In this document: positions 10,374 to 47,926 of the stretch, piece after piece
How positions within the stretch are numbered: position 1 is the stretch's first letter
Layout: each line of letters opens with the position of its first letter
Source of the DNA: Vulcanimicrobiota bacterium
Lineage (GTDB): Bacteria > Vulcanimicrobiota > Vulcanimicrobiia > Eremiobacterales > Eremiobacteraceae
Assembly (NCBI GenBank): GCA_019235715.1
Contig: JAFAKE010000081.1
Coordinates: 1-64,000, forward strand
Direction of reading: 5' to 3'
DNA: 64,000 bases
Notes under the pieces: generated by a model
What the model was told of the DNA's origin: nothing
Database searches by the model: none
The model's input: only the letters and a program-made list of their open reading frames with translations
Position numbers and translations under genes: made by a program

Positions 10374-10418
10374 ATGCTAGGGGTGCTGTATTAAGCCGGC
10401 GTTATGCCTAGATTAACC
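10374..10418 (-). promoter_or_regulatory. Pho-box-like array (3 x 11 bp) and -10 upstream of the TonB receptor gene
   Basis: On the minus strand the units GGTTAATCTAG, GCATAACGCCG and GCTTAATACAG follow each other without gaps. Each carries TTAA or ATAA at positions 3-6. Six bases later is TAGCAT (TAnnnT). The same 11-bp period and 6-base gap occur before pstS. The first unit includes the pstB stop codon. Tandem 11-bp repeats are the known architecture of PhoB/PhoP sites. Confidence 0.7.
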
Positions 10419-11234
10419 AAAACGGCCCGTGATGTAATCTTCTGTTCGCTTTTCTTTCGGCGTGGTGAACATCTTCGAGGTCGTATCGAATTCCACCAGT
10501 TCGCCCGTCGCTGCCTCGCCGGCGAGCATGAAGCCCGTGTAGTCCGAGCAGCGCGCCGCCTGCTGCATGTTATGCGTGACGATGATGATCGTATACGCCC
10601 CACGCAGTTCGCGCATCAGCTCTTCGATCTTGACCGTCGAGATGGGGTCAAGTGCGGATGCCGGCTCGTCCATGAGCAGCACTTCGGGATCCACGGCGAG
10701 CGCACGTGCGATGCACAGGCGCTGCTGCTGGCCGCCAGAAAGCGACGTGCCGGCCTTGTGCAGCTTGTCTTTGACCTCATCCCACAGCGCCGCGCGCCGC
10801 AAGCTCTTCTCCGAGATCTCTTCGAGCGTCGCATCTCCGGGCGGCTTACCTGCGAGGCGCACGCCGGCGAGCACGTTGTCCATGATCGTCATCGTCGGAA
10901 ATGGATTCGGGCGTTGGAAGACCATCCCGATGCGCCGGCGCGTGTCGGTGGGGTCGACGCCGGGTTCGTAAAGATTCTGACCGTCGAGCAGCACCTCGCC
11001 CTCGACGTGCGCGTGCGGAATCACCTCGTGCATACGGTTCAAGCAGCGCAGCAGTGTTGACTTCCCGCAGCCCGAGGGTCCGATGAGCGCGGTGATCGCA
11101 CCCGGCTCGAATTGCATGTTGACGCCCTTGACCGCGAGATGTTTGCCGTAGTACGCGTTGAGGTCTTTGACCTCCAAGCGAGTCGCGCTCGCGTCGGCGG
11201 GCCGTCCTGGTTGCGTTTCTTGAATCGCTTGCAT
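10413..11234 (-). CDS. pstB: Phosphate ABC transporter ATP-binding protein PstB
   Basis: The cytoplasmic ATPase of the high-affinity phosphate importer PstSCAB. All motifs are canonical: Walker [11 protein letters not shown]-loop [10 protein letters not shown], signature LSGGQQQR, Walker [12 protein letters not shown] and switch histidine VTHNMQQA. It has 273 residues, including a short N-terminal tail. It is the last gene of pstS-pstC-pstA-pstB. The ATG is preceded by two tandem copies of a Shine-Dalgarno-like decamer. Its motifs provide the internal reference that shows how degenerate the second PstB-like protein is. Confidence 0.97.
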
Positions 11235-11236
11235 TA

Positions 11237-11256
11237 TCTCCCCTAATCTCCCCTAA
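11237..11256 (-). promoter_or_regulatory. Duplicated ribosome-binding decamer before pstB
   Basis: TTAGGGGAGA occurs twice back to back on the minus strand, overlapping the pstA stop and ending 2 bases before the pstB ATG. The inner copy gives unusually short spacing and the outer copy rather long spacing, so alternative ribosome docking is possible. Confidence 0.5.
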
Positions 11257-12104
11257 TTCGCCGAGACGCGCCCCGAGAACGCGAGCCGTGCAGTGAGATT
11301 GAGCGCGAACACCAACGCGACGAGCACCAACGCGCAGCCCCACGCCAACTGCTGCCAATCGGGATACGGTGAGATCGCGTACTGGAAAATGACCAGCGGC
11401 AGCGCGGCCGTCGGCGATGACAGCCCTTTGGACCAGTATTGGCTGCCGAAGGCGGTGAACAGCAGCGGCGCGGATTCACCCGCGACGCGCGCAACGGCGA
11501 GCAGTGCGCCCGTCACGATGCCGGCGCGCGCGACGGGAACGGTCACGAGCAGCGTCGCCTTCCAGGCAGGTATGCCGAGCGCGAGCGCGCCCTCGCGAAT
11601 GACACCTGGTACGAGGCGTACGGCTTCCTCAGTGGTGCGCACGACGATGGGCAGCATGATGACCGCCAGCGCGACCGCGGCTGAGTGCGCTGAGAAGTGG
11701 CCAGTCGGAATCACGACGAGCGAGTACGCGAACACGCCGATTGCGATGGATGGCATGCCGGTGAGGACGTCGCTAAAGAAGCGGACGTTCGCCGCCAAGT
11801 GACCGCGCCCGAACAGCGCCAAGTAGATGCCGGCCAACACGCCGACCGGCACTGAGATGACGGACGCCATCAGCACGATTTCGAGCGAACCGACGATCGC
11901 GTTCGCGACGCCGCCGCCGGTCATGCCCACGGGCAACGGCAGCTTCGTGAAGAAATCGAGATTGAGCGCTTTGTAACCCTTGGAGATCACAAACGTCACG
12001 ACGACCGCAAGAACCACCCCGCACACGATAGCGCACAAAGCGGCTATGATGATCATGAATGCGTTCCAGAACTTGCGGAAGCCCGGGGACTTGAGAAAAT
12101 CCAT
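11253..12104 (-). CDS. pstA: Phosphate ABC transporter permease PstA
   Basis: An inner-membrane permease of PstSCAB, 283 residues with about six transmembrane helices. It carries the family segments TGGGVANAIVGSLEIV, the coupling region VPGVIREGALALGIPAWKATLLVTVP, and ARVAGESAPLLFTAFG. Its start overlaps the pstC stop (TGATG), and its own stop lies just upstream of the duplicated pstB ribosome site, so the three genes are translationally linked. Length and motifs are normal for PstA. Confidence 0.95.
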   Translation of the reverse strand: MDFLKSPGFRKFWNAFMIIIAALCAIVCGVVLAVVVTFVISKGYKALNLDFFTKLPLPVGMTGGGVANAIVGSLEIVLMASVISVPVGVLAGIYLALFGRGHLAANVRFFSDVLTGMPSIAIGVFAYSLVVIPTGHFSAHSAAVALAVIMLPIVVRTTEEAVRLVPGVIREGALALGIPAWKATLLVTVPVARAGIVTGALLAVARVAGESAPLLFTAFGSQYWSKGLSSPTAALPLVIFQYAISPYPDWQQLAWGCALVLVALVFALNLTARLAFSGRVSAN

Positions 12105-13081
12105 CAGCGGCGCCCCCGGCCACTCGCGTTCCAGACCAGCAGGCGCGCGCTGATGTTGACGAGCAGGCTGACGATGAAGAGCAGCAAGCCGACCTCGATC
12201 AGTGCCGAGATGTAGACCTTACCCGTCGCTTCAGAGAATTCGTTCGCCGGTACACTGGCCATGGTATAGGCAGGCTGGAAGAGCGATGCGACGATCTGCG
12301 GCTTGTTGCCGATGACCATGACGACAGCCATCGCTTCACCCAGCGCGCGACCCAATCCAAGAACCAGTGCGCCGACGACGCCGGAGCGCGCATACGGCAG
12401 CACGGCTTTGGTCATCATCTCCCATTTCGTCGAACCAAGCGCGAGCATGCCTTCGCGCTGATCGTTGGGCACTGCCTCGAAGACGTCGCGCGAGATCGCC
12501 GCGACCGTCGGCACAACCATGATCGAGAGGATCAGACCGCCTGCCAGCATGCCGACGCCGTAGATCGGACCTTGGAAGAGCGGAAGGAAGCCGAACGTAT
12601 GCTGCAGCGCGGGGCCGATGTACATGCGGATCACCGGCACGAGCACGAATAAGCCCCAGATGCCGTACACGACGCTGGGCACTGCGGCGAGCAGTTCGAT
12701 CAGCATCGCGACGGGTGTCGCCAGCCGCTTGGGCGCGAGTTCTGCCAAGAATAGCGCCGCGCCGATCCCGACCGGACCGGCGATGAGCAGTGCGATCGCG
12801 GACGTGACGATCGTACCGTAGATGAACGTCAGAACGCCGAAGTGTCCGCCGCCGGGATCCCATAACTGGGTGAAGACGCCAAGACCGATCGTCTGAATCG
12901 CCGGCCACGAACGCTGCAGCAACACGAGGAAGAGCGCGGCGACGATCGCCAGCACGAACCATGCTGACGCATAGAGCAGGAACATGAAGATGCGGTCGCC
13001 GGCAGGCGAAATGCGGGTCCGAGCCGCGCGCGCTGAGGCGCCGGCGGTCGCGCTGATAACTTCGGCGCTTTCTTGCGACAT
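12104..13081 (-). CDS. pstC: Phosphate ABC transporter permease PstC
   Basis: An inner-membrane permease of PstSCAB with about six helices. Family segments include WDPGGGHFGVLTFIYGT, AAVPSVVYGIWG, the coupling region VPNDQREGMLALGSTKWEMM and LGRALGEAMAVVMV. The frame extends to a TTG at 13180, but that codon has no ribosome site. The ATG chosen here has GAGGACG directly upstream and still leaves a 27-residue cytoplasmic N-terminus rich in Ala and Arg. It follows pstS and overlaps pstA by one base. Confidence 0.94.
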   Translation of the reverse strand: MSQESAEVISATAGASARAARTRISPAGDRIFMFLLYASAWFVLAIVAALFLVLLQRSWPAIQTIGLGVFTQLWDPGGGHFGVLTFIYGTIVTSAIALLIAGPVGIGAALFLAELAPKRLATPVAMLIELLAAVPSVVYGIWGLFVLVPVIRMYIGPALQHTFGFLPLFQGPIYGVGMLAGGLILSIMVVPTVAAISRDVFEAVPNDQREGMLALGSTKWEMMTKAVLPYARSGVVGALVLGLGRALGEAMAVVMVIGNKPQIVASLFQPAYTMASVPANEFSEATGKVYISALIEVGLLLFIVSLLVNISARLLVWNASGRGRR

Positions 13082-13189
13082 CGTCCTCGTTTTGCCGGCG
13101 TCGTCTGAATCGAATGAGCGAGGCGGTTGCGGCGGCGGGTTTGTCGCCCGGCCCCGCACCGCCTCTTGAGTCGTGTCCAAGCGATGCGT

Positions 13190-14224
13190 TTAGTTGTGGA
13201 TCGAACCGATCGCCTTGATCGCTTCCTGCTGCACGTTCTCAGGAAGCGGGACGTAGTTGACCTTCGCGGCGTACTGCTGACCACCGGTGACGAGCCACTT
13301 GAGCAGCGCCGTCAGCTCTTTGCCCTTGGCCGGGTCGGCTTGATTCTTCCAGACCAGCAGCCACGAGTAACCGGCAATCGGATAACTGTCCTTGCCGCCC
13401 ATGTCGGTGATCGAGAACTCGTTCGGGTTCACGTCGGGTTTTTGCGACGCGGCCGCGCGAATCGAGTCCGGCGACGGCAACACGAACTCACCGGCTTTGT
13501 TCTGCACTGCAGCATACGACATGTCGTTCTGCAGCGCGTAGGCGAGCTCGACGTAACCGAACGCGCCAGGCGAGTTGCTGATCTGACCGGCGACGCCCTC
13601 ATTGCCTTTTGCGCCGACGCCCGTCGGCCAGTTCACCGTCTTGCCGCGGCCAACTTTGGAATTCCAGTCCGGGCTGATCTTCGAGAGGTAGTCCGTGAAA
13701 TGGTAGCTGGTGCCGCTGCCGTCGGCGCGGTGTACGACGAGAATCGGAAGATTCGGGAACTTCACGCCTGCATTGAGCGCCGCGATGCTCGCATCGTTCC
13801 AGTTCGTCACTTTGCCGAGCATGACGTTTGCGATCACGGCGGGTGACAGCTTGATATGCTTGGAGACGCCCTGGACGTTGTAGGCGATCGCGATGCCGCC
13901 GAGCGTGTCTGGGATCTGGACGACCGCCCCATTCGCAGCGACTGCCGCATCGAGTTCTGCTTTGGTCATGGGCACGTCAGATGCGCCGAAGTCCACGGTC
14001 TTTGCCGTGAACTGAGCGATGCCGCCGCCCGAACCAATGCTCGCATAATTGACGGTGATGCCGGCGTGGTCTTGGCTGTACGCGTAGAACGCACGCGAGA
14101 AGAATGGATATGGGAACGTCGCGCCGGCGCCGAGGAATTGCGTATCGGCGAGCGCCGCCATTGGGACGATGAAGCCGGCGATCACGCCGGCTGCGACGAG
14201 CGACTTCAGTGGAGACATTTTCAC
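13190..14224 (-). CDS. pstS: Phosphate-binding periplasmic protein PstS
   Basis: The high-affinity phosphate receptor of the PstSCAB importer, 344 residues including a signal peptide (LVAAGVIAGFIVPMAALAD). The mature N-terminus shows GAGATFPYPFFSRAF, then NYASIGSGGGIAQF and DFGASDVPM, the classic phosphate-site loops. Later HRADGSGTSYHFTDYLS and GNEGVAGQISNSPGAFGYVELAYA are also PstS hallmarks. The GTG start has an AGGAG 10 bases upstream. It is the first gene of the pst operon and lies directly behind a four-unit Pho-box-like array, so strong induction under phosphate limitation is expected. Confidence 0.96.
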   Translation of the reverse strand: MKMSPLKSLVAAGVIAGFIVPMAALADTQFLGAGATFPYPFFSRAFYAYSQDHAGITVNYASIGSGGGIAQFTAKTVDFGASDVPMTKAELDAAVAANGAVVQIPDTLGGIAIAYNVQGVSKHIKLSPAVIANVMLGKVTNWNDASIAALNAGVKFPNLPILVVHRADGSGTSYHFTDYLSKISPDWNSKVGRGKTVNWPTGVGAKGNEGVAGQISNSPGAFGYVELAYALQNDMSYAAVQNKAGEFVLPSPDSIRAAASQKPDVNPNEFSITDMGGKDSYPIAGYSWLLVWKNQADPAKGKELTALLKWLVTGGQQYAAKVNYVPLPENVQQEAIKAIGSIHN

Positions 14225-14288
14225 GTTTTGAGCGCTCCTGCTCGCGAAAAAATCGCGGGTTGGTAAAGTGAAATTTGCACCTCCCCGG

Positions 14289-14344
14289 ACCGTATCGCAG
14301 GGGCCTCAAGCCTATATTAAGAGGGCCTTAACACAACATTAAGG
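14289..14344 (-). promoter_or_regulatory. Pho-box-like array (4 x 11 bp) and -10 upstream of pstS
   Basis: Minus-strand units CCTTAATGTTG, TGTTAAGGCCC, TCTTAATATAG and GCTTGAGGCCC run without gaps. Each has TTAA or TTGA at positions 3-6. Six bases after the last unit is TACGGT (TAnnnT). The first two units also form a 9-bp inverted repeat (GGGCCTTAA / TTAAGGCCC, loop 7) that could double as a phoU terminator. PhoB/PhoP binding is inferred from the 11-bp periodicity and position. Confidence 0.75.
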
Positions 14345-14390
14345 CCCCCCGAACGCCAGAAAAATGGAGTGGCTTACAGCCGAAAGAGGC

Positions 14391-15125
14391 CTATGACGCG
14401 GCCGTTTCGCCGAGCGAACGCGTGCCGAGAGCTTCGGACTGACCGATCGCCTGGTTGATGTCGACCACGGAGCGTTTCAGATTCTTGGGCACGCCTTCGA
14501 CCATGTAGACCACGCGTTCGCAGATGTTCGTCGCATGGTCGGCGATGCGCTCGAGGTAGAGCGCGACCAAGATCAGATTGCTGCCGCGACCGATAGCCCG
14601 CGGATCCTTGGCCATGAATTCGATCAGCTCTTTGAAAACGGCGCGATAGAGGCGGTCGACCTCGTCGTCCTTTTGCGGCACCTTATGCGCGATGTCGGCG
14701 TTGTGCTGCGCGAAGGCGTCCAGCGACTCGCGCAGCATTTCGCGCGCATTGGTCGCCATGAGCGGGATGTCGATGAACGGCTTGAGCTGCGGCTCGGTCG
14801 CCAGGTTTTTCGTGATCTGCGCGATGTCGCACGCATGGTCGCCGATGCGCTCGAGATCGATGATGATGTCGAGCATCGCCGCGATGGTGCGCAAGTCCGA
14901 CGCCATCGGCTGTTGCAGCGCGAGCAGATTGAGGCAGTTGGTCTCGATGCGCACGCACAGGTCATCGACGATGTCGTCGCCTTCGCATATCTCGTCGGCG
15001 AGTTTGACATCAGAACGCATCAGCGCGTCGACCGACTTGGCGGTCGCGTCCTCAACGAGGCTACCAAGGCGCAGCACGTCCTGCTGCGTCTCGTCTAGGA
15101 TGCGGTGAAAGCTCTCGCGACCCAA
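14391..15125 (-). CDS. phoU: Phosphate signalling protein PhoU
   Basis: A cytoplasmic all-helical regulator that links the Pst transporter to the PhoR/PhoB pair and damps signalling when phosphate is plentiful. It has 244 residues with the two-fold repeat of the family. Each repeat carries a metal-binding helix of the E/DxxxD type: DLERIGDHACDIAQ near the middle and YLERIADHATNICERVVYM near the end. The start is TTG with AAGGGGG 8 bases upstream. The gene has its own near-consensus promoter just after the phoR stop, so it is probably not only expressed with phoBR. It is separated from pstS by the Pho box. Confidence 0.95.
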   Translation of the reverse strand: MGRESFHRILDETQQDVLRLGSLVEDATAKSVDALMRSDVKLADEICEGDDIVDDLCVRIETNCLNLLALQQPMASDLRTIAAMLDIIIDLERIGDHACDIAQITKNLATEPQLKPFIDIPLMATNAREMLRESLDAFAQHNADIAHKVPQKDDEVDRLYRAVFKELIEFMAKDPRAIGRGSNLILVALYLERIADHATNICERVVYMVEGVPKNLKRSVVDINQAIGQSEALGTRSLGETAAS

Positions 15126-15143
15126 ACGGATGTGCCCCCTTCA

Positions 15144-15186
15144 AAATGTCCCCTTGCATTATAGGCGCGAGCGGGACATTTGTAAA
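15144..15186 (-). promoter_or_regulatory. phoU promoter with overlapping inverted repeat
   Basis: On the minus strand TTTACA, 17 bases, then TATAAT: a near-consensus sigma-70-type promoter beginning directly after the phoR stop. A 9-bp inverted repeat, AAATGTCCC / GGGACATTT with a 20-base spacer, brackets the -10 and expected start site, where a repressor could bind. The leader to the phoU TTG would be about 26 bases. Confidence 0.75.
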
Positions 15187-16296
15187 CTATCGGGCCCTTA
15201 AATCTTTGAATCGGCAGCGGAACGTGGTGCCAACACCGAGTTCGCTTTCGGCCACGACAGTGCCGGCGTGCAGCTCGATGATGTGTTTGACGATCGCCAA
15301 TCCCAGTCCGGTGCCCGTCGCGGAACGCGCCCGCGAGCGATCGACGACGTAAAAGCGCTCGAAGATGTGCGGCAGCGCCGATGACGGGATGCCGGGGCCG
15401 TCGTCGCTCACGTACAGCTCAGCGTGACCATCGTCACGCTTGACGCCGACCCTGACGTGGCCGCCCGGCGGCGTGATGCGCAGTGCGTTATCGAGCAGAT
15501 TGACGACGACTTGCACGAGCTTCGCGCGATCGCCCTCAATCTCGATGGGATCGTCAGGCGTGCGCACTTGCAGGTCGATGTTGAGCTGCTTGGCGCGCAG
15601 CGCTTGCGTCGCCACGACTTCGCGGCAGACTTCGCACAGATCGACCGGCGCAAACGGCGATTCCGGCGCTCCGCTTTCCAGCTTGGCCAGCCCGAGGAGA
15701 TCGCCGACCAGCGCGATCATGCGGTCCGTCTCCCGGGCGATGTCGTTAAGGAATTCCGTTTGCGCGGTCGCGTCAACGCCACCTTGCAGCGTCTCGACGA
15801 TGATCTTCACCGATGTCAGCGGGGTACGCAACTCGTGCGAGACGTTGGACACGAAATCGCGACGGATGGCTTCGAGCTCGCGCACGCGCGTGATGTCGTG
15901 CACCACGGCGACCGCTTCGCGCGGCGGTTCGGCGCCGCGCAGCGGACGAGTCGTCACCTCGAGGCGGCGCTCGCTGCCGACGTTATAGGTCAACTCGGCG
16001 GTCTGTTCTGCGCCCGAGCGCAACGCGTTCGACAGCCTGCGATCGAGTTCGAAACTGCGCACGCTCTCGATCAGCGTGCGCCCGATCGCGCGCTCGCGCG
16101 GCACGGCGAAAATCTCCGCGGCCGCAGGGTTGAAGACGGTGACACGGCCGTCCTCGCCGACTACGATGACGCCGACCGGCAGCGCGGTGACCAACGCGTC
16201 GAAGCGCTCGAGCAAGGCGGCGCTGTGATCCGCGGCAGCTGCATCGGCGCGCGCCTCGGCGCGACGCGACCGCCTGAATTGATCGAAAAGCGGCAT
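15187..16296 (-). CDS. phoR: PhoR-type sensor histidine kinase without transmembrane segments
   Basis: A histidine kinase, 369 residues. Order of domains: basic N-terminus, PAS domain (about 30-140, starting FDALVTALPVGVIVVGEDGRVT), HisKA with phospho-acceptor His154 in NVSHELRTPL, then HATPase with the N box NLLDNALRITPPGG, DDGPGIP and GTGLGLAIVKHI. Location next to phoB, phoU and pst marks it as PhoR. Unlike textbook PhoR it has no hydrophobic helix at the N-terminus, so it appears cytoplasmic. It starts 17 bases after phoB stops. Confidence 0.9.
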   Translation of the reverse strand: MPLFDQFRRSRRAEARADAAAADHSAALLERFDALVTALPVGVIVVGEDGRVTVFNPAAAEIFAVPRERAIGRTLIESVRSFELDRRLSNALRSGAEQTAELTYNVGSERRLEVTTRPLRGAEPPREAVAVVHDITRVRELEAIRRDFVSNVSHELRTPLTSVKIIVETLQGGVDATAQTEFLNDIARETDRMIALVGDLLGLAKLESGAPESPFAPVDLCEVCREVVATQALRAKQLNIDLQVRTPDDPIEIEGDRAKLVQVVVNLLDNALRITPPGGHVRVGVKRDDGHAELYVSDDGPGIPSSALPHIFERFYVVDRSRARSATGTGLGLAIVKHIIELHAGTVVAESELGVGTTFRCRFKDLRAR

Positions 16297-16313
16297 CTCC
16301 GCTTGCGAGTTGG

Positions 16314-17021
16314 CTAGTCTTTGAACAGATACCCGCGGCTGCGTACGGTCAAGATGCAGCGCGGATCGCTCGGATCGTCTTCGATCTTCTCACGCAACCA
16401 GCGGATGTGCACGTTGACCGTCTGCAGATCGCCGTAAAAATCGTAACCCCACACGCGGTCGAGCATCGCTTGGCGCGTGACGACGCGGCCTTTGTTTTCG
16501 AGCAGCACTTGCAGCAGTCTGAACTCCTTGGGAGCAAGCTCGATCACGCGTCCGGCTTTGGTGACGCGATGACGGCCGGCGTCGAGTTCGATGTCGCCGC
16601 CTTTGACGATCCCTGTTTCGGCCGGCGCATGGGTCGCTTGCAAGCGGCGCAGATGCGCTTTGATGCGCGCGAGCAGTTCGTACACCGAAAACGGCTTAGT
16701 GATGTAATCGTCCGCGCCGATCTCGAGCGCGAGCACTTTGTCGATCTCTTGATCTTTCGCGGTGAGCATGAGCACCGGCGTCGTCGACCGCTTACGGATT
16801 TCGCGGCACACTTCGATACCGTCGAGCTCCGGCAGCATGATGTCGAGCACGATAAGGTCGGGCTTTTCGACTTCGGCGACCGACAGCGCGCGCCGCCCAT
16901 CGCCCGCGGTGCACACCGAGTAACCGTTCTTCTCGAGGTTATAGCGCAGCGTCTGGAGGATGGTCGCCTCGTCGTCCACGACGAGGATCTTCGCGGATTG
17001 CGCTGCTCGTAATTCAGTCAT
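16314..17021 (-). CDS. phoB: Phosphate response regulator PhoB (OmpR family)
   Basis: A two-component DNA-binding regulator, 235 residues. The receiver domain has the acidic pair VVDDE, phospho-acceptor Asp60 in LIVLDIMLPE, and the conserved Lys in ITKPFS. A winged-helix output domain follows (LAPKEFRLLQVLLENKGRVVTR ... TVNVHIRWLREKIEDDP ... VRSRGYLF). The frame extends 12 codons upstream to a GTG, but the ATG at MTELRAAQ fits the family start better. It is first in phoB-phoR and presumably binds the 11-bp repeat arrays before pstS and the TonB receptor. No such array was found before phoB itself. Confidence 0.93.
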   Translation of the reverse strand: MTELRAAQSAKILVVDDEATILQTLRYNLEKNGYSVCTAGDGRRALSVAEVEKPDLIVLDIMLPELDGIEVCREIRKRSTTPVLMLTAKDQEIDKVLALEIGADDYITKPFSVYELLARIKAHLRRLQATHAPAETGIVKGGDIELDAGRHRVTKAGRVIELAPKEFRLLQVLLENKGRVVTRQAMLDRVWGYDFYGDLQTVNVHIRWLREKIEDDPSDPRCILTVRSRGYLFKD

Positions 17022-17217
17022 GGCTTTTCGCGCGCGGCGTTTCGCCGTGCTCCCCACGCATGACCTTCGTTACCGCGCTCGTTCGTCGCACGCGATTCGC
17101 AGGGCAGCTCAATGGGGACGGCGGTCGATCGGGATATTGACCCTTCCGCCTCGGTGGCGCCGGCTTTCGCCGCAGCCAACGCCCCGTTTCGAGCTTCCAC
17201 CGCGAATCGCGTTCGAT

Positions 17218-21744: not shown

Positions 21745-22554
21745 TTATTTTGCGTGTTCGGGTCGCGACTCTTCTTGCAGCAGGCCCTTCATCTTGGCCA
21801 GCGCGCGCTGTTGCAGCCGTGAGACGTGCATCTGCGAGAGCTGCAGGCGGCGCGCGATGGCCGACTGCGACACGTTCTCGTAGTAGCGCAGGTACACGAT
21901 GACGCGCTCGCGCCGGTCGAGGCGCTCGAAGGCGCGTTCCAGCAAATCCTTGTTCTCGAGCGCGCGCATGTCGGGATCGTCGCGTCCGAGGTAATCGAGC
22001 AGCGTCGCTGCTTTGCCCTCGCTTTCGCCGGCCAGCTCGACATCGAGCGAGAGCGGCGAGTACGCTTGGCCAAGCTCGTGCGCTTCGATGATCTCTTCTT
22101 CGCTCGCCTTGAGCGCAGCGGCCAGCTCGGCGACGCTGGGCGAACGGCCCAGGTGGACCGACATCGTATCGAGCGCACGATTGACGGCGGCGTTCAGCTC
22201 TTGCAGGCGGCGCGGCACGCGGATCGCCCAACCGCGATCGCGGAAGTGGCGTTTGATTTCGCCGATCACCGTCGGCGTCGCATACGTCGTGAACTCCAGG
22301 CCGCGCTGCGGCTCGAAACGATCGATCGCTTTGATGAGTCCCAGCGTGCCGACCTGGATCAGATCGTCGAGCGGTTCACCGCGGTTGGCGAAGCGCGATG
22401 CGAGGTAACGCACCAAGTTGAGGTGCGCGACGACCAGCTGCTCGCGCACTTCTTGATCGCGCGTCTGCGCGAACGTCGCGAACAGCGCGCGCGTGCGCTC
22501 CCGATCGAATCGCTCGGGACGAGAATCATTGGACGGCCGTGGTTGCGCTCCCAC
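21745..22554 (-). CDS. SigB/SigF-type sigma factor
   Basis: An alternative sigma-70-family factor, 269 residues. Region 2 reads DLIQVGTLGLIKAIDRFEPQRGLEFTTYA and IGEIKRHFRDRGWAIRVPRRLQEL, region 3 follows, and region 4 ends in the helix-turn-helix ENVSQSAIARRLQLSQMHVSRLQQRAL. This IRVPRRLQEL signature is typical of the SigB/SigF/SigG group controlled by RsbW/SpoIIAB kinases. The matching kinase and antagonist lie directly upstream, so partner switching is the likely control. GTG start. Confidence 0.92.
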   Translation of the reverse strand: MGAQPRPSNDSRPERFDRERTRALFATFAQTRDQEVREQLVVAHLNLVRYLASRFANRGEPLDDLIQVGTLGLIKAIDRFEPQRGLEFTTYATPTVIGEIKRHFRDRGWAIRVPRRLQELNAAVNRALDTMSVHLGRSPSVAELAAALKASEEEIIEAHELGQAYSPLSLDVELAGESEGKAATLLDYLGRDDPDMRALENKDLLERAFERLDRRERVIVYLRYYENVSQSAIARRLQLSQMHVSRLQQRALAKMKGLLQEESRPEHAK

Positions 22555-22592
22555 GAATTGCGTCTTCTACAGTCCGGGTCTCGCGGTGCTTG

Positions 22593-23033
22593 CTAGCGAG
22601 CCGGCGACTGCGGCCGCAGATGTTTGGTCATCGTCAGCCGAGTGCCGCGGCGCGGATCGACGTCATAGCTCACATCGTCCATCAGCGTGCGGATCAAGAA
22701 CACTCCCAGTCCTCTCTCGAGCGGCTCATCCTTCTGCCGCAGCTCGGTCCCTTGTCCTCTGAACCCCTTGCCATCATCCTGCACGGTCACGACCAGTTTG
22801 TCCGGATCGATCGTGCATGCGATGTGCACCTCGCCGTCGTCGGCCGCATGCTGGATGCAATTGGTATATGCTTCAGCGACAGCGAGCTTGAGGTCTTCGA
22901 TATCTTCGATGCCGAAGTCGAGCCGGCTGGCGATCCCCGCGATGGCGAGGCGCGCGACGCCGACCCACTCGGCTTTGCTCGGCAAGCGCAGTTCGATCAC
23001 GTTGGATGTCGACTGCTTTTTCGGCGAGATCAT
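22593..23033 (-). CDS. rsbW: Anti-sigma factor serine kinase, RsbW/SpoIIAB type
   Basis: A GHKL ATPase of 146 residues that would bind and hold the sigma factor downstream and phosphorylate the STAS protein upstream. Motifs are the N box LKLAVAEAYTNCIQHA, the G1 box DDGKGF, and the G2 region RGLGVFLIRTLMDDV. The ORF track starts 32 codons earlier, but that extension lies inside the STAS gene in another frame. The ATG used here overlaps the STAS stop as ATGA, which implies coupled translation and a fixed ratio of antagonist to kinase. Confidence 0.9.
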   Translation of the reverse strand: MISPKKQSTSNVIELRLPSKAEWVGVARLAIAGIASRLDFGIEDIEDLKLAVAEAYTNCIQHAADDGEVHIACTIDPDKLVVTVQDDGKGFRGQGTELRQKDEPLERGLGVFLIRTLMDDVSYDVDPRRGTRLTMTKHLRPQSPAR

Positions 23034-23377
23034 AGCGCTGCACCGGCGGCAGCTTCCGAATCGTAGATGCCGAAGATCTTGACGAGTCCGGTGATGTCGA
23101 AGATCTTCTTGATCTGCGGATTCGTGCACACGAGGCTGACCGTGCCGCTGTGCTCGCGCACGCGCTTGAGTCCGCCGATGAGCACGCCAAGCCCGGTCGA
23201 GTCGATGTAGCGCACGTTCTCGAGGTTGATGATCAGGTCGTAATGGCCTTGATCGATCAACTCGCCGATCGTCTCCTTGACGCGCGGCGAGGTGTAGACG
23301 TCGATCTCGCCGTTGAGATCGACGACGCGCACGCCGTTCTTGCCAGGCACTTCTTTCACGTCTACGGTGATGTCCAC
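23030..23377 (-). CDS. rsbV: Anti-anti-sigma factor, STAS domain (RsbV/SpoIIAA type)
   Basis: A single STAS domain of 115 residues. The family phosphorylation site is Ser60 in NVRYIDSTGLGVLIG. In the unphosphorylated state such proteins pull the kinase off the sigma factor. The gene overlaps the kinase gene by four bases and follows the YtxH-type gene by seven. No PP2C phosphatase (RsbU/SpoIIE type) lies nearby, so the signal input must be encoded elsewhere. Confidence 0.92.
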   Translation of the reverse strand: MDITVDVKEVPGKNGVRVVDLNGEIDVYTSPRVKETIGELIDQGHYDLIINLENVRYIDSTGLGVLIGGLKRVREHSGTVSLVCTNPQIKKIFDITGLVKIFGIYDSEAAAGAAL

Positions 23378-25417: not shown

Positions 25418-26152
25418 GTGACTTCCCCTACTGCTTCTGGGCAGCCGGCGAACAGCCGCTGCCTCGTCGTCCTGCCCACGTATCGAGAGCGCGAGAACAT
25501 CGAGGCGACGGTGCGCGCCGTGCTCGACTCGTCTGCGCGCGTCGACGCGGTCGTCGTCGATGACTCGTCCCCGGACGGGACCGCCGATCTCGTCAACGCG
25601 CTGCGCTTGCACGAACCGAGACTGTTCCTCATCAGCAGGCCGGGAAAGCTCGGTCTGGGCACCGCGTACGTCGCCGGCATACGATTCGGCCTGGATGCAG
25701 GGTACGACATCATTGCGACGATGGATGCAGATGGTTCCCACGACCCCAGCGCGTTGCCGGCGATGCTCGCGCAGCTTGATGCGGACGGCGCGGATGTCGT
25801 GATCGGCTCGCGCTACGTCGCCGGCGGCTCGGTGGAAAATTTTTCACTCGCGCGCAAGGCGAACAGCGCGGTCGCGAACGCGGTCGCGCGGGCACTTCTG
25901 GGTTTGCGCGTGCGCGACTGCACGTCGGGCTTCCGCGCGTATGACGCAACCCTTTTGCGCGCGATGCGTCTCGATGCGCTGCGCTCGACCGGCTACTCGA
26001 TGGTGCCGGAGCTGTTATATGAGGCGACGCGCTCGGGCGCGCGCATCGCCGAAGTGCCCATCGCGTTTCGCAACCGTGAAAAAGGCGTCTCGAAGGTGAC
26101 CGTCGGCGAGATCCTCAGCTGGATGCGCACCGTCGCCGCACTGCGCCGCTGA
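25418..26152 (+). CDS. Family 2 glycosyltransferase, polyprenol-phosphate mannose synthase type
   Basis: A GT-A fold enzyme of about 244 residues: VVLPTYRERENIEATVRAVL, VVDDSSPDGTADLV, then the metal motif ATMDADGSHDP, and GSRYVAGGSVENFSLARKANS. These are the hallmarks of Dpm1-like synthases that charge polyprenyl phosphate with a sugar. No C-terminal transmembrane helices are present, so it is the soluble form. The ORF track starts far upstream inside the antisense of the desulfurase gene; the GTG chosen is the last plausible start before the conserved core. It is divergent from the desulfurase with a 54-base gap and is followed by rarA 13 bases on. Confidence 0.85.
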   Translation: MTSPTASGQPANSRCLVVLPTYRERENIEATVRAVLDSSARVDAVVVDDSSPDGTADLVNALRLHEPRLFLISRPGKLGLGTAYVAGIRFGLDAGYDIIATMDADGSHDPSALPAMLAQLDADGADVVIGSRYVAGGSVENFSLARKANSAVANAVARALLGLRVRDCTSGFRAYDATLLRAMRLDALRSTGYSMVPELLYEATRSGARIAEVPIAFRNREKGVSKVTVGEILSWMRTVAALRR

Positions 26153-26165
26153 ATTCCGAACGCGA

Positions 26166-46868: not shown

Positions 46869-47567
46869 ATGAGATTGGCGCTGAGCTCGCGCAGTTTCGC
46901 GCGCGCGCTGGAAAGCGGCACGCTGACGCAGCTCGAGTGGATCGACGTATGCTGCGCCGAGCCCGCGATCGACGGCGCCGATTTTGCGCGCGAACATTTC
47001 CCGCGTCGCGATGACGACTATCTCGCGCAGATCAAGAAACTGTGCGTCGATCGGCGCTTGACGATTGCGGGAATGAACAGCGCTGCACGATTCGGCGGCG
47101 GCGGCGTCGACGCTCAGGCGGGTGAGATGTGCGCGACGTTGGACGAGGCTGCGCTCATCGGAGCTCCGCTCGTGCGCTTTTCGTGCGCTGCGGTCGACGG
47201 ACCGGCCGGCGTCGTGTGGGGCGAACTCATCCGCGGTTTGAAGTTCGTGAGCGAGCACGCGAAGCGCGTCAATGTGACGCTGGCGCTCGCGCCGCTCTCA
47301 GGCACGCTGGTCGCCGACGAAGCAGCCGCCAAGCGCGCGCTCAAGGAATGCGACTCGGCGTGGCTGCGCCTTGCCATTCCGGCGGCGGTCGCGTGGGAGA
47401 CGCATGCGCGCGATGCGGTCGTCATGACGTCGGCGCCGCGCGGCGATGATCTTGCAGCGGCGCTGCGTTTCCGCGGATTCGTCAGCCTAGAAGATGAAAG
47501 CGGCACGCTCGATGCCGCACGTCTGCGGCGCTGGGCGGAAACGTTCTACGCCCCGGGTATAGAGTAG
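46869..47567 (+). CDS. TIM-barrel sugar-phosphate isomerase/epimerase-like protein
   Basis: 232 residues resembling xylose-isomerase-like TIM barrels: RLALSSRSFARALESGTLTQLEWIDVCC at the start, DDDYLAQIKKLCVDRRLTIAGMNSAARFG, then APLVRFSCAAVD and a late AETFYAP. The metal ligands of the family are not obvious, so it may be a divergent or inactive member. The ORF track starts 96 codons early within the antisense of the phosphatase gene. It is divergent from the phosphatase (58-base gap) and convergent with the 6S RNA. Confidence 0.65.
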   Translation: MRLALSSRSFARALESGTLTQLEWIDVCCAEPAIDGADFAREHFPRRDDDYLAQIKKLCVDRRLTIAGMNSAARFGGGGVDAQAGEMCATLDEAALIGAPLVRFSCAAVDGPAGVVWGELIRGLKFVSEHAKRVNVTLALAPLSGTLVADEAAAKRALKECDSAWLRLAIPAAVAWETHARDAVVMTSAPRGDDLAAALRFRGFVSLEDESGTLDAARLRRWAETFYAPGIE

Positions 47568-47577
47568 GCCGATGCAA

Positions 47578-47602
47578 ACGGCCCGCCGTGAAAGCGGGCC
47601 GT
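47578..47602. terminator. Shared hairpin terminator of the TIM-barrel gene and 6S RNA
   Basis: A perfect 9-bp stem, ACGGCCCGC / GCGGGCCGT with a 7-base loop, lies 10 bases after the plus-strand stop and directly after the 3' end of the minus-strand 6S RNA, followed there by TTTGC. It fits both transcripts. Confidence 0.75.
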
Positions 47603-47611
47603 CCGTTCGCT

Positions 47612-47790
47612 CTGCCCCGAAGTGCCGTTGCCTGCAAGGGACTTGAACCTGCACCTGCAGGTGGGTGCTCACCCGGCCGAACGCAGGCTTCCCTCTACGA
47701 GGAGGGCTTGCTCAAGGCGGCGCGGAGATCGGCTCCCGTTGTGATTGCGTTGGCTCAATCACAAAGCAAGCTGACGCACACCGCAGGGAG
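47612..47790 (-). ncRNA. ssrS: 6S RNA
   Basis: About 180 bases on the minus strand, the usual 6S length. The 5' arm CCCUGCGGUGU pairs with the 3' arm GCACUUCGGGG (one mismatch and several G-U pairs), and next to it UUGCUUUG pairs with CAGGCAA. The 5' strand continues to ...GAUUGAGCC and the 3' strand carries GGUUCAAGUCCCUUGCAGGCAACGGCA, both close to the conserved 6S arms that flank the open-promoter-like bubble. Small hairpins such as CCCUC/GAGGG fill the centre. 6S RNA binds the housekeeping RNA polymerase as a promoter mimic in stationary phase. It is directly followed by a terminator. A covariance-model search was not possible here. Confidence 0.8.
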
Positions 47791-47819
47791 ATCTCGCGCG
47801 ATCGCTCACGCGTGGCCAT

Positions 47820-47848
47820 ACGGTAACATCTCGCGGCGCACAAGACAA
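47820..47848 (-). promoter_or_regulatory. Putative 6S RNA promoter
   Basis: TTGTCT, 17 bases, TACCGT on the minus strand. The predicted start lies about 20 bases before the closing stem, allowing a short processed leader. An inverted repeat (ACAAGTCT / AGACTTGT, 47845-47873) overlaps the -35. Confidence 0.5.
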
Positions 47849-47926
47849 GTCTTGACTTTGGCGTGAGACTTGTTCCGGCTCCCGCGCGCGGACGGTAATC
47901 GTACGCGAACCGACGAACGATGGCGC

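Follow-up and report, generated by a model that had tools for sequence, protein, structure and literature searches.

A single-copy 6S RNA gene of Eremiobacterota with a conserved dyad over its -35 element

The small RNA known as 6S RNA sequesters RNA polymerase. An earlier note placed a 6S RNA gene on the minus strand at 47612-47790 of the DNA analysed here, a 64-kb stretch of contig JAFAKE010000081.1 from Vulcanimicrobiota bacterium (GCA_019235715.1), hereafter called the window. Does this intergenic stretch encode a genuine 6S RNA, and what governs its production? On its lower-numbered flank a plus-strand xylose-isomerase-like TIM-barrel gene ends at 47567, and on the other flank a plus-strand gene starts near 47870-47920. 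For glyA, a neighbour of the locus, the best relative bearing a name comes from an Eremiobacterota MAG (65% identity), and it is from this match that the phylum name used here derives. In the literature searched, no paper linking 6S to Eremiobacterota was found.

The window was searched against all Rfam families. RF00013 (6S/SsrS) matched the minus strand at 47610-47792 with 85.7 bits and an E-value of 1.6e-15, well above the gathering score of 46.4 bits. This covariance search had been named beforehand as the check, and it bears out the proposed gene, shifting its ends by 2 nt on each side and giving 183 matched nucleotides where about 180 had been expected. The alignment runs end to end (model positions 1-187 of 187) and is the sole Rfam match above cut-off within the 64 kb. 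Other Rfam matches near the locus (E<5) were under cut-off and chance-like, and a search for a tRNA or tmRNA found none. No second 6S copy is present in the genome assembly (2.5 Mb, 107 contigs, 96% complete). The outer arms, described in the earlier note as complementary, do pair, with standard pairs at 42 of the 51 Rfam consensus pairs in the window copy, and the canonical 6S parts are all present: closing stem, P2, central bubble with its 3' hairpin, and terminal stem. Likewise, the 3' block GGUUCAAGUCC...CAACGGCAC, which had been called conserved, matches the canonical 6S 3' strand.

Thermodynamic folding alone would miss this RNA, since the folding energy of the single sequence lies weakly below that of shuffled sequences (z = -1.5); recognition therefore rests on the covariance model and on comparison. 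When the Rfam structure was lifted onto 30 sequences of the phylum, 75% of cells were paired, as compared to 41-49% in slid controls. The covariation score of these 30 sequences was 0.261, against a mean of 0.159 after shuffling, and slid structures did not exceed 0.128. Compensatory changes maintain the closing stem, the central bubble and the terminal stem. The minus strand at 47610-47792 is a genuine 6S RNA gene and an ordinary member of the known family. At the sequence level the call draws support from conservation across the phylum, from covariation, from the single copy and from a promoter that is itself conserved. We put at about 97% the probability that this is a single-copy 6S gene of Eremiobacterota (WPS-2), read leftward from an extended -10 promoter of housekeeping type and ending at a hairpin. 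The features are collected in Table 1.

Table 1. Features of the 6S RNA locus and of the sigma-factor pair within the window
Feature	Position	Strand	Remarks
6S RNA (SsrS) gene, 183 nt	47610..47792	-	RF00013 85.7 bits, GA 46.4; single copy
-35 element TTGTCT	47843..47848	-	conserved TTG, 17-bp spacing to -10
-10 element TACCGT, preceded by TGT (extended -10)	47820..47825	-	conserved in 13 family members
Dyad GTCAAGACTTG, overlapping -35, possible operator	47846..47856	-	sole genome copy; exact in 41/122 phylum 6S upstream regions (not phylogenetically independent)
Predicted pRNA start C44; pRNA 5'-GUUGGCUCAAUCACAAA	47749	-	position inferred from GAGCCAAC
Alternative 5' central-bubble hairpin UUGUGAUUG/CAAUCACAA	47739..47764	-	80% of cells paired, 13 family sequences
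3' central-bubble hairpin ACCUGC/GCAGGU	47647..47662	-	91% of cells paired, 30 phylum sequences
Terminator-like hairpin, perfect 9-bp stem, 7-nt loop, short U-run	47578..47602	-	position kept in relatives
Sigma-70 family factor, Sigma70_r2/r3/r4 (regions 2, 3, 4)	21745-22554		adjoins RsbW-like gene
RsbW-like HATPase_c_2 protein	22593-23129		adjoins sigma-70 factor

Two other readings of the locus have to be weighed against this one. The plus strand does carry an open reading frame of 92 amino acids at 47588-47866, and a small protein might be encoded there, the RNA match being incidental. The third-position G+C of this frame is 0.62 as compared to about 0.8 in the surrounding genes, and the match of the minus strand to the RNA model (1.6e-15), together with the covariation, speaks against it, so that we consider a small protein extremely improbable. 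The RNA might also be 6S-like but bind something else, for instance core RNA polymerase, the partner of Ms1 in mycobacteria. A binding partner cannot be told from sequence, but the RNA scores as 6S, and its P2, its bubble and the start region GAGCCAAC are intact; PMC9130861 describes Ms1 as standing in for 6S in a group in which no 6S is found. A different partner is thus very improbable, and we keep to an ordinary 6S RNA.

How widely is this gene kept? Of 149 phylum genomes, RF00013 matched 58 at E<=1e-3, with 38 scoring above cut-off. A covariance model of the phylum, built from the sequences of 30 of the RF00013-matched genomes, detected 6S in 126 of 147 genomes and in 80 of the 85 good assemblies, almost always as a single copy. 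6S is close to universal in Eremiobacterota. Annotation by the Rfam cut-off understates it, because Rfam scores drop under the cut-off in f3, the largest family, where most copies are missed. In the window's own family a single genome (G024) lacks a match to the model; there, the promoter dyad described below, the -10 and the 5' end of 6S run off a contig end, and the absence is therefore an assembly break. Hence 6S control of RNA polymerase is retained nearly throughout a largely uncultured and little-studied phylum, and the gene studied here is known in kind and new in detail for Eremiobacterota.

A consensus promoter scan detected nothing at the locus, because the -10 hexamer TACCGT is a weak match (TA...T). 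It was family comparison that revealed the promoter: in an alignment of 13 family members, GTCAAGACTTGT followed by TGnTAnnnT is nearly invariant amid otherwise diverged DNA. In the window this promoter (47820-47848) reads TTGTCT, 17 bp, TACCGT, with TGT before the -10, and the plausible promoter of the earlier note is in this way confirmed by its conservation. Transcription is predicted to start at about 47813, leaving a leader of about 20 nt up to the 5' end of 6S; 5' processing is therefore assumed. The leader region (47793-47819) holds GAGCGATCGCGCGAG in the window's genus; genus g8 lacks it and has its -10 almost directly at the 6S start, so that 5' trimming is implied only in the window's genus. 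The hairpin 3' of 6S keeps a constant position, while its stem sequence changes among relatives. Of the perfect terminator hairpin proposed earlier, the stem (47578-47602) holds, but the U-run following it is poor and short. Judged by these features, the locus is a gene in its own right, about 180 nt long and equipped with a promoter and a terminator.

The promoter contains a dyad of 11-13 bp, (T)GTCAAG-W-CTTG(AC). In each of the 13 family members whose 6S is complete it overlaps the -35, as it does in roughly half of the phylum's 6S genes. In the window's genome GTCAAGWCTTG occurs exactly once, at the 6S promoter. Among the 6S upstream regions of the phylum the exact dyad is found in 41 of 122, counts which are not phylogenetically independent, and it is found in none after shuffling, in none with the reversed pattern and in none downstream. 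If the centre may be any one or two bases, 61 of 124 upstream regions hold the dyad, again without phylogenetic independence. The dyad is 20-21 bp away from the extended -10 in 17 cases; in 25 others the distance is 10-11 bp. The two registers are one helical turn apart, and in both of them one half lies near the -35 with a spacing of about 17 bp. Although left out of the covariance model, the dyad adjoins 6S matches missed by Rfam.

The 13-bp form GTCAAGWCTTGAC was sought in 25 genomes and occurs there at 19 places, of which 13 are 6S promoters. The six others include two in coding-like frames, one copy of a 6S upstream region and one before a MarR-like gene; another sits where no frame passed the filter. 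No genome-wide regulon of the dyad was found, and in the window's family every further exact site that was examined lies inside a long coding-like frame. In genus g21 (L262 1501) the 6S upstream region, dyad included, appears to be duplicated about 6 kb away, where an intact -10 is missing. In L256 1501 (family f2) a perfect GTCAAGACTTGAC dyad precedes, by about 57 bp, a gene judged MarR-like by eye; this might point to a dyad-binding protein. The dyad was also considered as a universal 6S element and rejected, being present in one of 28 promoters of other phyla and as two near-copies among 30 Negativicutes. Most Negativicutes 6S promoters have CTTGCA at the -35 place; those of L325, L326 and L292 carry TTGTCAAG-N-CTTG at the -35, resembling the Eremiobacterota dyad.

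What does the dyad mean? A dedicated 6S operator is plausible. A DNA-binding protein of its own may control 6S in Eremiobacterota, the operator TGTCAAG-W-CTTGACA being essentially restricted to 6S, always placed over the -35, at two positions one turn apart, and spanning the phylum. Such an operator would explain the specificity, the deep conservation and the 10-bp register, and regulation at this very place has precedent in lactic acid bacteria, where a cre site lies over the 6S -35; still, we hold this tentatively, at somewhat less than even odds. The dyad may equally be a pair of -35-like sequences that overlap, TTGTCA and CTTGNN, each usable by sigma and kept for promoter strength. This accounts more simply for the 17-bp spacing: it is the right half in family f1 and the left half in f3 that lies about 17 bp from the -10, and many Negativicutes 6S promoters carry CTTGCA alone at the dyad's place. 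It accounts less well for eleven dyad bases that are almost invariant in a family with otherwise diverged upstream DNA, for f3 promoters which lack the left half and yet retain CTTGAC at its place, too near the -10 for a -35, and for the occurrence of the dyad about once per genome and not at many promoters. We give overlapping -35 sequences close to an even chance. The dyad offers a concrete handle on the timing of 6S production in bacteria distant from the model species; few groups have an answer to this so far (e.g. CcpA in lactic acid bacteria).

Within the RNA, an extra hairpin may form in the 5' side of the central bubble in the window's family. It is mutually exclusive with part of P2, with which it shares bases. 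In this family its covariation exceeds that of all shuffles, with few independent events: double changes occur in three pairs only, several of them from one genus. P2, where the bases are shared, varies on one side only. The modest covariation is suggestive of the extra hairpin. By its position C44 (window 47749) is the likely start of the pRNA, and the predicted antisense pRNAs would begin GUUGGCUC. Following established 6S biology, the RNA would mimic a melted promoter and would bind the primary-sigma RNA polymerase holoenzyme as growth slows. Using the 5' side of the bubble as template, the polymerase would then make a short pRNA, probably from C44 on, and pRNA synthesis would unwind P2 and thereby release 6S. 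With lower confidence, a dedicated protein bound to the dyad over the -35 might set when 6S is made.

Two statements of the earlier note concern the surroundings. The 6S locus does not lie in the only large intergenic gap, for the gap at 25742-26165 has about 424 nt with nothing predicted, as compared to about 350 nt at 6S; it separates an aminotransferase class-V gene from a MgsA/RarA-type ATPase gene and gave no Rfam match. Two layers of sigma-factor competition had also been proposed. A sigma-70 factor and its RsbW-like neighbour do exist (21745-23129) and are, by their domains, consistent with a SigB-type module, but they lie about 24 kb from 6S, with which no shared feature was found beyond the one genome. 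Joint control by this module and 6S would thus be conjectural. 6S alongside alternative sigma factors is common in bacteria. Elsewhere in the window, the minus strand at 10413-17057 carries a phosphate-type set (ABC ATPase, two permeases, binding protein, PhoU, PAS histidine kinase, OmpR-type regulator).

Compared with known systems, the gene agrees with 6S/SsrS (RF00013) in its full-length match of 183 nt, in closing stem, P2, bubble with 3' hairpin and terminal stem, and in being a single intergenic gene. It differs in the extra 5'-bubble hairpin that the window's family may form, and most of its f3 class mates are below the Rfam cut-off. In E. coli type 6S an extended 3'-bubble hairpin forms on release (PMC8876501). 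The RNA shares with B. subtilis 6S-1 the capacity to fold a short 3'-bubble hairpin while free (PMC8876501), and its predicted pRNA start is at the same relative place. For B. subtilis 6S-1 weak 5'-bubble pairing was predicted and was unconfirmed by probing (PMC8876501), whereas the 5'-bubble hairpin here has modest covariation support. At the promoter, the closest likeness is found in lactic acid bacteria, where the palindromic cre site (CcpA) overlaps the 6S -35 (PMC8414754). Both are palindromes over the -35, but cre has another sequence and is a genome-wide regulon motif, whereas the Eremiobacterota dyad is nearly 6S-specific.
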